Shown: piece after piece, positions 53,697-61,365 of the stretch | How the letters are laid out: every line of letters starts with the position of its first letter | Position numbering within the stretch: the stretch's first letter is position 1 | Program-made: the position numbers and the translations under genes | Source of the DNA: Rhizobium sp. Q54 | GTDB lineage: Bacteria; Pseudomonadota; Alphaproteobacteria; UBA2966; CAIVPW01 | Direction: 5' to 3' | Assembly: GCA_945947575.1 (NCBI GenBank) | Contig: CAMEYM010000008.1 | Coordinates: forward strand, 1-64,000 | Length of the DNA: 64,000 bases | Notes under the pieces: model-generated | What the model was told of the DNA's origin: nothing | Database searches by the model: none | What the model saw: the letters and a program-made list of their open reading frames with translations, nothing else

Positions 53697-54197
53697 TTAT
53701 GGGTTCAGCGGCAGGGGCGCGGCACCCGGGGCCATCGGCGCCATCGGCGTAACGTCCGGACCCGGAATCGGCGCCCGGTTGTTGACGATGTTCTGGATGA
53801 CCTTCTGGTCGCCATCCAGGCGGTAGGTCAGCGTGACGGTCTGACCCGGCGTCAGCGTGTCGCCGCCCGGCACGTTGGCGGCGAGCAGGAAGGTATCGCC
53901 GTTCTCCAGCGTCAGGGTGCGGCGCAGCGGGTCGTACTGATCGACGCGGCCGTTGGTGGTCTGCGTCATCGCGGCGAGCGCGTTAGGCGCGGCTGCCGGC
54001 GGCGTGATCGGCGTGGCCGGTACGCCCCTGTTGTCGCCGAGACCGGCGCCGCCACCCGGCATGGCCGGGGCGGGAACGATGGGGGACGGAGTCACTGCCG
54101 GCGGAACGACCGGAGCGGGCGCCATGCCGGCGTTCGGCAGGCCGCGATCGGCCGGCGCCGTCGGCACGAACACGCCGTTGTCGTCCGGCAGCAACGC
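53697..54197 (-). pseudogene. DUF1344-like protein, 5' end missing
   Basis: The frame ends at 53697 and has a Pro-rich linker (about residues 25-80) followed by a DUF1344-like domain (GRVDQYDPLRRTLTLENGDT, then GQTVTLTYRLDGDQKVI). Upstream of about 54197 the same frame enters the antisense of the AAA ATPase gene, just at its Walker A loop. No signal peptide or convincing start is present before that junction. The simplest reading is that the 5' part was deleted together with the 5' part of the ATPase. The domain itself looks functional. Confidence 0.6.
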
Positions 54198-56592
54198 GAC
54201 CCGGGCATCGGCAAGAGCCGCCTGGTTTCCGAATTCGACGCGCAGGTGAGCGCCGCGGGTCACATCGTCATCCGCACCTCTTGCTTCCCGCCGCACTTGT
54301 TCGTTCCCGTCCCGCCGGTGGCCGAAGCGATGCGCCAGGCGCTGGCGCTGCTCGGCGTGCGCACTCACGAGGACGTCGGCAGCGACAAAGGTCTCGTGCA
54401 GCTCACGCCTCTGCACCGCGCCGCGATCCGCGTCGTGCTCGGCGGCGATCCGGGGGACACCCAGTGGCAGGCCCTCGGTCCGACCGAGCGGCGCCATCTG
54501 ACGCTGTCGGCGTGCGTCGAAGTGTTCGAGCAGTTGGCGCGCGCGCCAGGCTCTGGTGCTCTTGTTCGAAGACATCCATTGGGCCGATTCGGATCTTTCG
54601 CGCCTCATTGACCTGTTGTCGGTGCGCGTACACCTCGGCCGTACGCTGGTAGTCATGACGCGCCGTCCGGGCGCCGAGTTCCAGGACACGCCGTGGCCCA
54701 GCACCACGGTTGTCGAAGTCGATCCGCTCAGCGCGGCCGAGGGCGCCGAGCTCGCCAAGGCGACGCTCGGCTCCGCAAGCCACCTCAGCGCGCTGCGCGA
54801 CCTGCTGGTCGACAAGACCGGCGGCAATCCCTTCTTCCTGCTCGAGTGCGTTGCATCGGTGCTCAACGCCGGTCCGCTCACCGAGCGCGCCAGCGCCGCC
54901 ACGGTGCAGAACTGGGTGCGCGAGTTCGCGGTGCCGCGCACTATCCAAAGTATTATCGCGGCGCGCATCGACCGGCTCGCGCCGGCCGACCAGGAACTGT
55001 TGAGCCGCGCTTCCGTGATCGGCCAGACCTTTGCACACCAGCTGCTGGCGCGCATCGTGCCCGAGCGCCGCGAACAACTGCTCGCCGCACTCAACCGCCT
55101 GTGCCAGCTCGGCTTCCTGCAGCGCACGCGCGTCGTCCCGCACCTCGAGTTCAGCTTCAAGCACGCGTTGATTCATGACGTTGCGTACGGCTCGCTGCCG
55201 AGGGCGCTGCGCAAGAACCTGCACAGCGAGATCGCCGCGAACCTGCGTGCGCGCAGCCTGCAGATTGCGAACCGCATGGCGCTGCTCGCGCAGCACTGCC
55301 TGCGCTCGGAGCTGTGGGGCCAGGCGTTCGTCTATGGTCTCGCCGCCGGCCGCGATGCCTTGCGCCGCTCCCAGTTCCGAGAGGCCGTTGGCCTTCTCGA
55401 GGACGCTTCGAGTGCGCTCAAGCGCTTCCCGCGCACGGCGCGCAATAGCAAGCGCACCGCGCACGTCTGCCTCGACCTCGCCGATGCGCTCTTCCCGTTG
55501 GGCCGCAAGCAGGACGCGGAGCAGCAGCTGATTTTGGCGCAGTCGGCGGCGCGCCGCTCGGGCGACACCCGCACGCTGACGCGCACCTGGTGCAGCCTGA
55601 TGCTGCATCACTGGGTCGCCGGCAATCTGGAGACCGCTCACCGCATCGGCGTGCGCGCGCTCAAGGCGGCGGACGCCGCACGCTTCGACGATCTGCGTCT
55701 GATCTGCCTCGGCCGTCTTGGTTACGTGGCACTGGAACGTGGTCGCGGCAAGAGTGCCCGCCAGTATCTCCAAGATGCGCTGGCACTATCCGTTTCGTTG
55801 CCCGGCCGCCGTCGCGACGGCTTCCTCGTGGTTTCGCCGGTCGCGCTACAAGGTCCGCTGTCCGTTGCGCTCGCCCAGTTGGGCCTCTATCGCGAGGCGG
55901 TCGAACTCGCCGACGCCGCACTGAGCGGCGCCGAGGAATCGGGACACCTGTTCAGCAAGGTGTTCGCGCTGTTTCACGCCGGCATGGTGTATCTGCACCA
56001 GGGCGATTTCCAGCGCAGCGCTGAAGTCCTGGGCCAGTCCCTGCGCCTGTGCCGCACGATCGGCTCGACACTGCTCGTGCGCCAGATCGTCAGCGCCATG
56101 GGGTATGCGCTCCTTCACATCGGCCGCGCTGAAGAGGGCTGCACCCTCCTCGAGGACGCCGTCGCCTCCGCGACGCCGGATCCGATGGTCGGGCAGCTGC
56201 CGCAGCATCTCGGCTGGTTGGCCATGGCCAAGCTCGCCCTGGGTAACCACGGCGAGGCCGAGGTCGTCGCACGGCGCGCCATAACGCTGGCACGGCGCAA
56301 CGGCCAGCGTGGCTACGAAGCTTGGGGATGGTATGCGCTCAGCCGCGCCCAGCACGCCCTCGACGTTAGAACTGCCGCCCGCTCCATGGAACGGGCTCGC
56401 ACCATCGCCGTTGGTTGTGGCCTCACGCCCCTGGCAGCCCGAACCGAAGGCGGTTGGGGGGCATCGGAATCCGCCCTCGCCGTGGAAGTGACGGCGACGC
56501 CTACCTCGCCCCGCTCGCGCAATCATCTGCGCGTAGTGCGGAGCGACAATCAGGGCGCAGCGCGCCCTAAGCGTACGGTAGCGCTTACTTAG
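54198..56592 (+). pseudogene. AAA ATPase with TPR region, 5'-truncated and frameshifted
   Basis: The sequence begins in the P-loop: D-P-G-I-G-K-S-R-L-V at 54198-54227 lacks the first Gly of Walker A and everything before it. The frame then runs through CFPPHLFVPVPPVAEAM to about 54540, where a 1-base slip in a GCGCGCGCGC tract moves to the next frame. Walker B follows (LVLLFEDIHWADSD). The rest (about 680 codons) has LVDKTGGNPFFLLECV and a TPR-like helical C-terminus. This is the C-terminal part of a cyclase- or LuxR/MalT-like ATPase regulator. It lies upstream of the RiPP operon, but a regulatory link is not shown. Confidence 0.65.
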
Positions 56593-56818
56593 GCTCCGCG
56601 GGCTTCTCGCCCAGCGCGTCCAAGCACGCCTCGGCTGCCGCTCCGATCAGGAGCGCCGCAAGCTCAGCCCTGTGGCCCGTTGCTTCTGCCCGCAACTGGT
56701 CCAGGCACGCCTTGATGCTGTTGAGGGCTTGTTCCCTGCGGCCGTGAGCCTGACCCGCCGGCATCGCCGTTGGGCGGTCTGACGGGACAATCCTCGCGGC
56801 AGCACTCGTACTCTTCAT
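56585..56818 (-). CDS. Small helical protein divergent from the RiPP operon
   Basis: This 77-residue protein starts with GGAGAA before the ATG at 56818. It has a Ser/Pro-rich N-terminus and a long helical part, RREQALNSIKACLDQLRAE then LAALLIGAAAEACLDALGE. It has two Cys residues and a basic-acidic pattern. No family was recognised. It is divergent from the precursor gene with 189 bp between the starts, so it shares the region of the CRP sites. It could belong to the RiPP locus or be unrelated. Confidence 0.6.
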   Translation of the reverse strand: MKSTSAAARIVPSDRPTAMPAGQAHGRREQALNSIKACLDQLRAEATGHRAELAALLIGAAAEACLDALGEKPAEPK

Positions 56819-56894
56819 AACGGTTCTCCAAGTATTTGGGCGCCCAACTGCGGCGGCCATCCTGCAGCGATACTGCGACTTGGCGAATCCGTTC

Positions 56895-56942
56895 TGTGAG
56901 CCACTTCACAGGGCGCTTCACCTCTGGGTGAAGCAATTCACA
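56895..56942. promoter_or_regulatory. Two CRP-type operator palindromes upstream of the RiPP precursor
   Basis: Site 1 is TGTGA-N6-TCACA (56895-56910), a perfect match to the CRP consensus. Site 2 is GGTGA-N6-TCACA (56927-56942), with one mismatch. Their centres are 32 bp apart, about three helical turns, so both lie on one face. A further inverted repeat GCTTCACC/GGTGAAGC joins them (56915-56934). The Crp/Fnr protein at 59523 keeps the Arg-Glu residues that read TGTGA, so it is the likely regulator. Distance from site 2 to the precursor start is 66 bases. Confidence 0.8.
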
Positions 56943-57007
56943 GAGCTTTAGCACCCGTCCCGGTAAGTACTCTGGGTCGGGTCAGCAACTCTTAGGAGAA
57001 ACCAAAG

Positions 57008-57412
57008 ATGACGACGGAGGTACGCGGAACCCTGGTACGGGGTCCAGACGGATTGCTTTATGCGGTCGGCGGGGGTGTCGCGACCGTTGTTGATTCTTCG
57101 AACAGCGCACCGGTTGCACCGCGGGCCGCCGCAGCGGCCGCTGAAGATCACGACGCGGGCCGCTACATGATCACTCCGGGTGACCATGACGCCGGCCGCT
57201 ACATGATCACGCCGAGCAACGCGTCGAGCGAGCATGACGCCGGGCGCTACATGATCACTCCGGGCGACAACGAAGCCGGCCGCTACATGATCACGCCGAG
57301 CAACGCTGCCGCGCAGGATCACGACGCCGGCCGCTACATGGTGACTCCCGGTGAGGAGAGCGACCATGGCGCGGGCCGCTACATGATCTCTCCTGAAGTC
57401 AGCAACGCTTAG
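57008..57412 (+). CDS. RiPP precursor with six AGRYM-type repeats
   Basis: This 134-residue protein has a short N-terminal part (residues 1-45, ending in an Ala run) and then six near-identical units [D/E/G]AGRYM[I/V][T/S]P at residues 49-57, 61-69, 77-85, 89-97, 106-114 and 121-129. Acidic or small spacers such as GDH, SNASSEH and SNAAAQDH lie between them. Repeats of one core in one precursor are known for RiPPs such as thiovarsolin. The next genes encode a YcaO-TfuA pair, so the units are the likely core peptides and the N-terminal part the leader. AGGAG lies before the ATG. No homologue is recalled; the product is unknown. Confidence 0.85.
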   Translation: MTTEVRGTLVRGPDGLLYAVGGGVATVVDSSNSAPVAPRAAAAAAEDHDAGRYMITPGDHDAGRYMITPSNASSEHDAGRYMITPGDNEAGRYMITPSNAAAQDHDAGRYMVTPGEESDHGAGRYMISPEVSNA

Positions 57413-57454: not shown

Positions 57455-57497
57455 GCTCGCCTAGTTCCAACGAGTGCCAAGACCAAGGGAGCTCCCC

Positions 57498-58766
57498 ATG
57501 CTCAGCCAGCTCGAGACCACCGCCCTCGCCGCCGCGCGCAAGGCCTACCACTCCGGCACGCACCGTACGGTCGCGCCCGAGGAAACGCTGAAGCGCATCA
57601 CGCCGCTGCTGCCCGCCATGGGCATCACGCGCGTGGCCAACGTCACGGGACTCGACCGGGTCGGCATTCCCGTCGTCATGGTGACGCGCCCGAACTCGCG
57701 TTCGGTCTCGGTCAGCCAGGGCAAGGGCACGACCCTCACCGCCGCCAAGGTGTCCGGCGTCATGGAGGCGATCGAGGGCTACCACGCCGAGCGCATCACC
57801 CTGCCCCTCAAGCTCGCGAGCTTCGAGGAGCTGCGCTACACGCACCAGATGGTCAACGTCTACGCGCTGCCGCGCAATGGCCGCAGCACCTTCACGCCGC
57901 ACGCGCCGCTCTTGTGGACCGAGGGCAAGAGCCTGGTCTCCGGCCAGCCGGTGTGGGTGCCGTTCGAGATGGTGCACCTGAACTACACCTCGCCGATGCC
58001 GTCGGGCACCGGCTGCTTCCTGGCCAGCTCGAACGGTCTGTCGTCCGGCAACACCCTCGACGAAGCGATCAGCCACGGCATTTCCGAATTGGTCGAGCGC
58101 GACGCGGCGACGCTGTGGCATCGTCTCGACGCCGAGGCACGCGCACGCACGCGCATCGACCTTGCCACCATCCAGGACGGCTGGTGCTGCGACCTGATCA
58201 AGCGCTTCGACGCCGCCGGCATCGACGTCGGCATTTGGGACATCACCTCCGATATCGGCCTGCCGGCATTCCTGTGCCGCGCCGTGCCGCGCGACGCCAC
58301 CGTGCATGGCTTCCGCCCGGCCGTCGGCATGGGCTGCCACCCGGCGCCCGAGATCGCGCTGTCGCGCTCCCTCACCGAGGCGGCACAGAGCCGGCTCACC
58401 TTCATCTCCGGCGCGCGCGATGACATGCCGCGTCACGAGTACGAGCACTTCCTCGACGCCAACGTGCACAAGCGTTGGCAGGCGATGCTGCACGGCGAGA
58501 CGCCGCAGAAGCGCTTCGCCGACGTCGCCACCTTCGCGACCGATTCGATCACCAGCGACATCCAGCGCGAGGTTGCGCGCGTGATGGAATGCGGTGGCGA
58601 GGACGTCATCGTCGTCAACCTCACCAAGCCCGAGTTCAACATCCCGGTCGTGCGCGTCATCATCCCCGGTCTTGAGGGCGTCGATGCGTCGTCCGACTAC
58701 GTGCCCGGCAGACGTGCCGCAGCCCAGGATGCCGAGCGGCCGCGCGTCGCCGCGAGGGCGGCATGA
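57498..58766 (+). CDS. YcaO-domain peptide-modifying enzyme
   Basis: This 422-residue protein is a YcaO ATP-dependent enzyme that activates backbone amides. ATP/Mg-binding motifs are VSQGKG (about residues 72-77), E90-x-x-E93 (MEAIEGYHAE), the SSNGLSSGNTLDEAISHGIS block with E197 and E200 in SELVERD, and E294-A-A-Q-S-R. The C-terminus lacks the Pro-rich tail of azoline-forming YcaOs, which fits the TfuA-linked, thioamide-forming type (compare McrA thioglycine formation and thiovarsolin). GGGAG precedes the ATG. It overlaps tfuA (ATGA). Thioamidation is inferred. Confidence 0.88.
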   Translation: MLSQLETTALAAARKAYHSGTHRTVAPEETLKRITPLLPAMGITRVANVTGLDRVGIPVVMVTRPNSRSVSVSQGKGTTLTAAKVSGVMEAIEGYHAERITLPLKLASFEELRYTHQMVNVYALPRNGRSTFTPHAPLLWTEGKSLVSGQPVWVPFEMVHLNYTSPMPSGTGCFLASSNGLSSGNTLDEAISHGISELVERDAATLWHRLDAEARARTRIDLATIQDGWCCDLIKRFDAAGIDVGIWDITSDIGLPAFLCRAVPRDATVHGFRPAVGMGCHPAPEIALSRSLTEAAQSRLTFISGARDDMPRHEYEHFLDANVHKRWQAMLHGETPQKRFADVATFATDSITSDIQREVARVMECGGEDVIVVNLTKPEFNIPVVRVIIPGLEGVDASSDYVPGRRAAAQDAERPRVAARAA

Positions 58767-59515
58767 CCGCTTTCGTCTTCTGCGGGCCGAGCCTCACCGC
58801 CGAGCAGGGGCGGCCGCATCTCGACGCCATCTACCTGCCGCCGGTGGCCCAAGGCGACGTGATCCGCGTCATCGCGCGCAAGCCGACGGCGATCGGCATC
58901 ATCGACGGCTTCTTCCACAACGTGCCGGCGGTTTGGCACAAGGAAGTTCTCGCGGCGCTGCAGCAAGGCATCCCGGTGTGGGGCAGCGCCAGCATGGGCG
59001 CCCTGCGCGCCGCCGAGTTGCACCCGTTCGGCATGGTCGGTGTCGGCGCGGTGTTCGAGGCGTACCGCGACGGCATCATCGAGGATGACGACGAGGTCGC
59101 CGTCACCCACGGGCCCGGCGAGCTCGGCTACCTGGCGCTATCGGAAGCGATGGTCAACATCCGCTGCACCATGGCGGACGCACAACAACAGGGCGTTCTC
59201 TCCGAGCGCAGCCGCATCGTGCTCGAACGCGCCGCCAAGGCATTGCCCTACCAGGAGCGCACGTACGATCGCATCCTGAAGGCCGCTGCCGCCGCGGGCC
59301 TCGATCGCCGCGACGTCGAGGTCACGCGCGCGTGGCTTCCGTCCGGCCGCCGCGACCTCAAGCGCGAGGACGCTGTCCGCATGCTGCAAGTCATGCGTGA
59401 GCGCCTGGTTGCAGGCGCGCCGCGCGCAACTCCGAAGTTCCACTTCGAAGAAACGACGCTGTGGTTGAGTGCGGTAAAGGGTACCCTGGAAGGCACCAGA
59501 GCACCGCGGACATAA
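58763..59515 (+). CDS. TfuA-domain partner protein
   Basis: This 250-residue protein is a TfuA homologue. Its marks are FVFCGPSLTAEQG, IGIIDGFFHNVPAVWHKEV, the GSASMGALRAAELHPFGMVG block and AVFEAYRDGIIEDDDEVAV. TfuA was named from trifolitoxin genes and works beside YcaO, where it is thought to deliver sulfide and help thioamide formation. The start overlaps the YcaO stop, so the two are translationally coupled. It is complete. Confidence 0.88.
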   Translation: MTAFVFCGPSLTAEQGRPHLDAIYLPPVAQGDVIRVIARKPTAIGIIDGFFHNVPAVWHKEVLAALQQGIPVWGSASMGALRAAELHPFGMVGVGAVFEAYRDGIIEDDDEVAVTHGPGELGYLALSEAMVNIRCTMADAQQQGVLSERSRIVLERAAKALPYQERTYDRILKAAAAAGLDRRDVEVTRAWLPSGRRDLKREDAVRMLQVMRERLVAGAPRATPKFHFEETTLWLSAVKGTLEGTRAPRT

Positions 59516-59522
59516 CGGACGA

Positions 59523-60218
59523 ATGCCAGCCGCAGAAGATCTGCGGAGCGTCATCACCAAGAATGTGATCTTCGGGGCGTTAGGTTCCGGGGAGGTCGAT
59601 CGGCTCCTCGCCGCCGCCACGCTCCGCGCATACGAGAAAGATCAGCAGATCTTCCAACAGGGAGATTTGGCGGACGGTCTGTATCTCGTCGCCACAGGCC
59701 GCGTCGGTATCCGCACGCTGTCCGAGGAGGGCAGCGAGATCTTCCTCAACATTCTCGAAGGCGGCGCCGTGTTCGGCGAGATCGCCGCGATCGACGGCGG
59801 CGCGCGCACGGCAGGCGCGATCGCGATGGAGCGCTCCGACCTCCTGTTCGTCGACCGCCGCACATTTCACGGCTTGATGCTGGCGAGCCCGGCCCTGTGC
59901 GTCAGCCTGCTCACGCTCATGTGCGAGCGCTTGCGCTGGACCAGCTCGATCATCGAGGACGCGCACTTCCGCGACGTCAGGACGCGCCTCGCGCGGCGCC
60001 TGCACAAGCTGCTCGGCGAGTACGGCGTCGAGCAGGAAGGCGGCATGCGCATCAAACTGAAGGTGACGCAGGAAATGCTCGCGCGGATGCTCGGTGCGAC
60101 GCGCGAGAGCGTCAACAAGGAACTCATGGCGCTGCAGCGCGCCGGCATCCTCACCTACAGTCGCGGCTACGTCACCGTGCACGACGGCGAAGGATTGCGG
60201 CGTACTACCGAGGAGTAG
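59523..60218 (+). CDS. Crp/Fnr-family transcription regulator
   Basis: This 231-residue protein has an N-terminal cyclic-nucleotide-binding domain (IFQQGDLADGLYLVATGRVGI, then GAVFGEIAAIDGGARTAGAIA with the Glu and Arg that bind phosphate) and a C-terminal winged helix (VTQEMLARMLGATRESVNKELMAL). The R-E-x-x-x-K recognition order resembles CRP, which reads TGTGA. It is the last gene of the precursor-YcaO-TfuA operon (7 bases after tfuA), and CRP-type sites lie before the precursor. Autoregulation by this protein is inferred. No iron-sulfur Cys set of Fnr is seen. Confidence 0.9.
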   Translation: MPAAEDLRSVITKNVIFGALGSGEVDRLLAAATLRAYEKDQQIFQQGDLADGLYLVATGRVGIRTLSEEGSEIFLNILEGGAVFGEIAAIDGGARTAGAIAMERSDLLFVDRRTFHGLMLASPALCVSLLTLMCERLRWTSSIIEDAHFRDVRTRLARRLHKLLGEYGVEQEGGMRIKLKVTQEMLARMLGATRESVNKELMALQRAGILTYSRGYVTVHDGEGLRRTTEE

Positions 60219-61290: not shown

Positions 61291-61365
61291 TGGAGCGGGA
61301 GAAGGGATTCGAACCCTCGACCCCAACCTTGGCAAGGTTGTGCTCTACCCCTGAGCTACTCCCGC
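61291..61365 (-). tRNA. tRNA-Gly (anticodon GCC)
   Basis: The minus strand folds as a full cloverleaf. The acceptor arms GCGGGAG/CTCCCGC pair, followed by the discriminator base T and an encoded CCA (61293-61291). The anticodon stem CAACC/GGTTG surrounds TTGCCAA, so the anticodon is GCC. The T arm has GGGTTCGAATCCC. The gene lies between small hypothetical genes and the thioredoxin gene. Confidence 0.97.

Follow-up and report, generated by a model that had tools for sequence, protein, structure and literature searches.

The locus described here lies in a 64,000-nucleotide stretch of DNA from Rhizobium sp. Q54, which was analysed as a whole and is called the window below. On its plus strand, a gene for a predicted RiPP-type precursor of 134 amino acids (57008 to 57412), with the leader RGPDGLLYAV and then six AGRYM(I/V)(T/S)P repeats, is followed by genes for a YcaO protein (57474 to 58766; PF02624, 1.7e-87), a TfuA protein (58763 to 59515; PF07812, 1.4e-47) and a CRP-family regulator (59523 to 60218; PF00027 and PF13545). 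YcaO and TfuA adjoin the small leader-core ORF, which is the arrangement of a YcaO-TfuA RiPP cluster. Matches of the precursors to Pfam families such as MBG_2 and EspG were regarded as artefacts of repeats or composition, and neither an exporter nor a protease gene was recognised in the operon from ORF translations and Pfam. The number of precursor cores varies strongly within the family, from one in Azospirillum to six in the window and about 20 in locus L064 of genome G007, where a precursor-like ORF upstream of ycaO encodes 306-317 amino acids with about 20 AGRWA(I/V)(S/T)P repeats. Beyond the operon, 54 bases (61291 to 61344) are identical to the nearest relative, locus L001, and by their look may form a tRNA gene.

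Divergent from the operon, a minus-strand gene (56585 to 56818, start at 56818, SD GGAG) encodes a 77-amino-acid protein which is without a Pfam match, is 79% identical in L001 and shows a dN/dS of 0.13. It occupies the place of an RHH_4 gene in Azospirillum (the divergent gene of L009, the sole Azospirillum protein tested, is RHH_4, PF13467), and comparable divergent ORFs with an SD are found across the Azospirillum family. Upstream, on the plus strand, lies the apparent remnant of a cyclase-AAA-TPR gene (54179 to 56592).

Two palindromes, neither assigned to a strand, separate the divergent genes. The distal one (56895 to 56910, TGTGAGCCACTTCACA) matches TGTGA-N6-TCACA without mismatch and the proximal one (56927 to 56942, GGTGAAGCAATTCACA) with one mismatch, their centres (56902.5 and 56934.5) being 32 bp apart, so that the original prediction of a perfect and a near-perfect CRP-type site at this spacing agrees with the letters of the window. 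Both are predicted operators, and they are the sole matches to the consensus at up to one mismatch in a scan of the 64-kb window. Both palindromes are retained in L001, 32 bp apart as in the window, the distal one reading TGTGAAGCACTTCACA and the proximal one GGTGAACCAATTCACA.

Homologous YcaO loci were collected from one scan of genome contigs (21 loci) and then from wider searches that covered 61 relatives, 385 genomes from the class, 82 from the order to which G065 belongs and 398 from the phylum. The comparison table holds 81 loci and the window, with crp directly after tfuA in 62 of these 82; a later search of the phylum gave one further locus (L204), which stands outside the table. A palindrome with at most one mismatch to TGTGA-N6-TCACA lies within 1.2 kb upstream of ycaO in 59 of the 62 ycaO-tfuA-crp loci (51 of them perfect) but in only 3 of the 19 scorable loci without an adjacent crp. 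The three exceptions with crp are L161 and L162, which read AGTGAA-N4-TTCACT, and L081, whose perfect site lies farther upstream. The extended form NGTGAA-N4-TTCACN is present in 59/62 against 0/19 of the two groups, with 13 matches over 885,140 other positions of the same stretches as background. The Fisher p of 2e-11 overstates the independence of the loci, which are related and come mostly from one family; when they are aligned, however, the arms of the palindrome are fixed while the flanks diverge. The check named in the original prediction, a search for the palindromes before homologous clusters, thus finds them conserved with a linked crp and nearly absent without it. The pairing of the sites fared less well: the pair is kept in L001, but 59 of the 61 loci with a site have a single one. 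In some Azospirillum genomes a second YcaO-TfuA locus (L177, L178, L181) is present without crp, site or cyclase.

Of 17 whole genomes searched for the exact form TGTGAA-N4-TTCACA, 12 contain it, and in nine of these it occurs as a single copy, at the YcaO cluster. G405 has three copies. Its cluster is split, and one copy lies with the part that has ycaO (L123), one with the part that has the precursor, the RHH gene and the TPR end (L201), and the third at L189. About 90 kb separates the two parts, each of which has kept an operator, and this genome thus offers a natural experiment on what the operator does. The cluster sites of G427 and G431 read AGTGAA, and the exact match stands upstream of another RHH-like gene (L192 and L193, site at 1501; family assigned by eye). 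Since these RHH-like genes share the exact operator, the regulon probably extends beyond the cluster. The exact form is absent from the remaining five genomes, of which G000, G426 and G099 have variants at the cluster and G002 and G003 are without a YcaO match.

Alignment of 61 loci on the site revealed, besides the site itself, a conserved block between +31 and +36 relative to its centre, mirrored at -31 to -36. In a spacing test with 31 representatives of less than 55% flank identity, 20 show the pattern xAxxxT at exactly +31 rightwards and 10 show it there leftwards (nine of them TAxxxT), and nine have it at +30 rightwards; all remaining offsets give 0 to 6. A -10 element at this block would put the site near -41.5, where E. 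coli CRP binds at class II promoters, so a typical locus would place one CRP dimer between two divergent promoters. The window has a -10-like TAAGTA on the plus strand (56964 to 56969) at +30 from the proximal site, ahead of the precursor operon, and a -10-like TATCGC on the minus strand (56867 to 56872) at +31 from the distal site, the mirror position, for a leftward promoter. In the opposite direction from each palindrome, the -10 position is taken by the other palindrome. Most likely, then, the proximal site serves the precursor promoter and the distal site the leftward promoter.

The original prediction had instead taken the sites as a tandem pair on the precursor promoter, which would correspond to class III CRP activation from -41.5 and about -73.5. 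A spacing of 32 bp is near three helical turns and would put both dimers on one face of the DNA, and both sites are retained in L001. However, only one site is present in 59 of 61 site-bearing loci, the distal site has its own leftward TATCGC in the window (weak in L001, which has the poorer CATCTC), and in Rhodospirillum centenum both divergent genes of the corresponding cluster are activated by the CRP homologue CgrA. A tandem arrangement is accordingly possible but rather improbable, and the geometry points to one site for each divergent promoter.

The regulator, whose gene closes the operon, reads GATRESVNKEL at the recognition helix and so keeps the Arg-Glu order that had been claimed for it. 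It has the cNMP-binding and Crp-type HTH domains of the CRP family with conserved contacts. In an alignment of the 62 cluster CRPs with E. coli CRP, the cNMP contacts G71, E72 and R82 and the DNA contacts R180 and E181 are invariant, S128 is kept in 61, and S83 is Thr in 60; T127 is Thr in 17, the window included. The operator consensus and the Arg-Glu recognition helix are shared with E. coli CRP and with GlxR / Mycobacterium CRP, whereas the cluster regulator is apparently dedicated to one cluster and differs from E. coli CRP in having Lys for R185 (61/62) and mostly Val for T127 (42/62, with Thr in the window). The AR2 residues found in E. coli CRP have not been retained by the 62 cluster CRPs. 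With the E. coli-type global CRP profile NF008732, the regulator scores 83.7 of the 266 bits needed, and the nearest solved chains are 4byy, 3r6s, 4cyd and 3d0s. A tree split 15 of the 62 cluster CRPs from E. coli CRP and from two further proteins of the window's genome, L023 and L030 (95/99); inner support is weak and branches are long, and only this split was used. By analogy with CgrA, the ligand here would be a cyclic nucleotide, most likely cGMP.

L023 and L030 also carry Arg-Glu recognition helices and could bind TGTGA, which would let a global CRP of the host, instead of the linked regulator, use both sites; a one-mismatch TGTGA site moreover lies upstream of the L030 gene (G000, C6:78115-78130). 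Such a role for the global protein is nevertheless quite unlikely, as the site tracks the linked crp across loci, the exact form is confined to the YcaO cluster in 9 of 17 genomes, and CgrA of R. centenum itself binds TGTGA-N6-TCACA. A global CRP may still act in addition to the linked one. The site at C6:78115-78130 is about 200 bp upstream of a Crp/Fnr gene (C6:78343) and perhaps reflects autoregulation.

A closely similar arrangement has been described in R. centenum, in which a guanylate cyclase has been identified (PMC3770947, in the available text). According to the available text of PMC4681086, CgrA is a CRP homologue which uses cGMP, and a 16-bp TGTGA-N6-TCACA site upstream of RC1_3785-gcyB-gcyC-cgrA, published as TGTGAAGCAGTTCACA, was footprinted and also covered by ChIP-seq and RNA-seq. 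The divergent genes RC1_3784 and RC1_3785 are both activated by CgrA there and are termed hypothetical, and gcyB and gcyC are termed putative or non-catalytic cyclase subunits. For A. brasilense, cGMP genes and a CgrA homologue have been noted (PMC6159551, in the available text). Among the genomes searched here, the YcaO cluster of G468 bears the exact 16-mer TGTGAAGCAGTTCACA, and the published chrR site TGTGATCCATTTTGCG occurs once in the same genome; on these two matches, G468 was taken as R. centenum itself or a very close relative. Where gcyB and gcyC would stand, it encodes a YcaO protein (2.8e-89) and a TfuA protein (7.1e-47), and the first gene is a 54-amino-acid ORF beginning MSMLIRGADGRLYAIE with the family leader, a motif which is present in 55 of the 62 loci with crp. 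RC1_3784 agrees with the divergent RHH-like ORF, for which the upstream start is 44-47 nt away from the centre of the site (-43 in the available text of PMC4681086). For RC1_3785, the position given in that text, -188, misfits an ATG at 130 nt, and the annotated start may lie inside the ORF.

As judged from sequence, the locus in the window is the orthologue of the gcyA / RC1_3784 / RC1_3785-gcyB-gcyC-cgrA cluster, with GcyB and GcyC corresponding to YcaO and TfuA and RC1_3785 to a putative RiPP-like precursor, while position and name suggest that GcyA of R. centenum is the AAA-TPR gene of the locus. A CRP homologue stands 3' of gcyB-gcyC and a TGTGA-N6-TCACA site upstream of the first gene, and the two clusters share gene order, operator, a divergent small gene and an autoregulated CRP. 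The window differs from R. centenum in having two operators, a six-repeat precursor, a 77-amino-acid protein in place of the RHH protein and a missing cyclase domain, and its CRP is 45% identical to the R. centenum-type CRP. A full-text search, outside which most subscription papers fall, found nothing tying the cluster, or cGMP signalling, R. centenum or Azospirillum, to YcaO, TfuA or RiPPs. It is stated in the available text of PMC4681086 that gcyB and gcyC are cyclase subunits, which would make the peptide reading wrong; with matches of 2.8e-89 to YcaO and 7.1e-47 to TfuA, and with a leader-bearing small ORF next to them, this is very unlikely. That the palindromes are chance matches scarcely deserves weight, for although at least two sites arise anywhere in 19 of 100 shuffles of the window, their position, spacing and conservation contradict it and the contrast between loci with and without a linked crp (59/62 against 3/19) effectively rules it out.

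The same shuffles (mean expectation 0.80 sites) make the count of palindromes weak evidence by itself, and a scan of the whole genome at up to one mismatch gave 24 places (4 perfect) against 11 for a reversed control pattern. The weight of the evidence for functional operators lies in conservation rather than in count.

The cyclase gene is where the window departs most from its relatives. L001 has an intact cyclase-AAA-TPR gene of 1054 amino acids, and the gene is intact in L009 as well. Homology of the window to the L001 gene, by orthology gcyA, starts only at 54179, shortly ahead of the Walker A motif; the cyclase domain is missing, and a frameshift of 2 nt is present near 54545. A minus-strand gene to the left of 54155 has a homologue in G003. 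On the minus strand, the segment 53210 to 54155 encodes two small proteins, members of a family that is present in several copies in each genome of the genus, and the second protein ends at the cyclase breakpoint. Other cyclase-like matches in the window's genome are 26-39% identical, none being closer. Either the lineage of the window has lost its cyclase arm, or the assembly would have to be wrong there. The dN/dS of the remnant against L001 is 0.20, like that of neighbouring genes, which means that the loss is recent, that the fragment still works or that the assembly is wrong. The closed control loop proposed originally does not hold for the window genome, whose local cyclase gene lacks the cyclase domain and is frameshifted; if a cyclic nucleotide is used in this organism, it would come from elsewhere than a linked cyclase.

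Across the compared loci, a cyclase gene lies upstream in 53 of the 62 with crp, and 5 of the 19 scorable ones without crp have it too, so that the link of cyclase with YcaO-TfuA is more than shared control by CRP. Catalytic residues were checked in 59 aligned cyclase rows, including those of loci without crp. Both metal-binding Asp residues are kept in 58, whereas the substrate Lys position is Gln in 55, the transition-state Asn is His in 50, Asn in five and Tyr in three, and the transition-state Arg is Lys in 50 and Arg in eight. This unusual pattern set aside a canonical adenylyl cyclase, but as the R. centenum-type copy likewise has Gln, His and Lys, the family is not called dead. His or Tyr and Lys replace Asn and Arg in most loci with crp, while several loci without crp retain Asn and Arg; such replacement is unusual for class III cyclases.

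Two other known systems resemble parts of the locus. The YcaO-TfuA thioamidation pairs, of the McrA-glycine type and of thioamidated RiPP clusters (Malit et al. 2021; PMC8120280, in the available text), share adjacent ycaO and tfuA genes and a small precursor ORF, but the window adds a linked cyclase gene (as a remnant) and a CRP, and its scores fall short of the McrA-type cut-offs (270.4 of 365 bits for TIGR03266 and 224.5 of 235.2 bits for NF033432). The main text of that paper, as available, is without Azospirillum, cyclase or Crp (PMC8120280). The best NCBIfam match of the AAA-TPR part of the ORF pair in the window is to the C-terminal part of the TOMM kinase/cyclase fusion TIGR03903 (3.5e-48). 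However, the score of 164.3 is far from the cut-off of 705.75 bits, the two ORFs cover only profile positions 507-1137, and the genes of relatives are cyclase-AAA-TPR, with the kinase domain absent in Pfam.

Taken together, the palindromes are very probably operators of the linked CRP, which would mediate cGMP-type activation of a divergent promoter pair in an orthologue of the R. centenum cluster. A cyclic nucleotide, most likely cGMP, would bind the CRP-family regulator from the end of the operon, and the loaded regulator would bind the palindromes and activate the divergent promoters in class II fashion, with the precursor-ycaO-tfuA-crp operon as rightward output, amounting to autoactivation, and the small gene as leftward output. 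The core of the original prediction, that the linked regulator controls the precursor and its operon through a cyclic nucleotide, is thus favoured by the co-conservation of site and crp, the kept residues and the published binding by CgrA, with the CgrA circuit carried over from R. centenum to the window organism by analogy. The regulator-operator pair and the circuit are already known from R. centenum. What appears to be new is the identity of this known cGMP cluster as a peptide-modification cluster: on the gene matches, the R. centenum-type cluster is a YcaO-TfuA RiPP-type cluster wired to cGMP.

TPR proteins are peptide receptors in other bacteria; together with the lack of a recognised exporter or protease, this suggests that the peptide may activate the cyclase within the cell that makes it. 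A tentative proposal, more probably wrong than right, is that the YcaO-TfuA-modified peptide is the ligand which activates the AAA-TPR receptor cyclase, forming an autoinducer loop in which a RiPP works through cGMP as second messenger and which would gate encystment in the Azospirillum clade. The modified peptide would raise cGMP, and cGMP-CgrA would yield more precursor, YcaO, TfuA and CgrA; in the lineage of the window, the cores would have multiplied and the cyclase arm would have been lost later.

To our knowledge, there are few established cases of bacterial cGMP signalling. Encystment of R. centenum is among the best studied, and the available text describing it names gcyB and gcyC as cyclase subunits while showing no enzymatic role for them. 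If gcyB and gcyC encode YcaO and TfuA, and RC1_3785 a precursor, this developmental switch would become a peptide-modification system, and the large YcaO-TfuA family would gain a regulator with its operator and a probable ligand.
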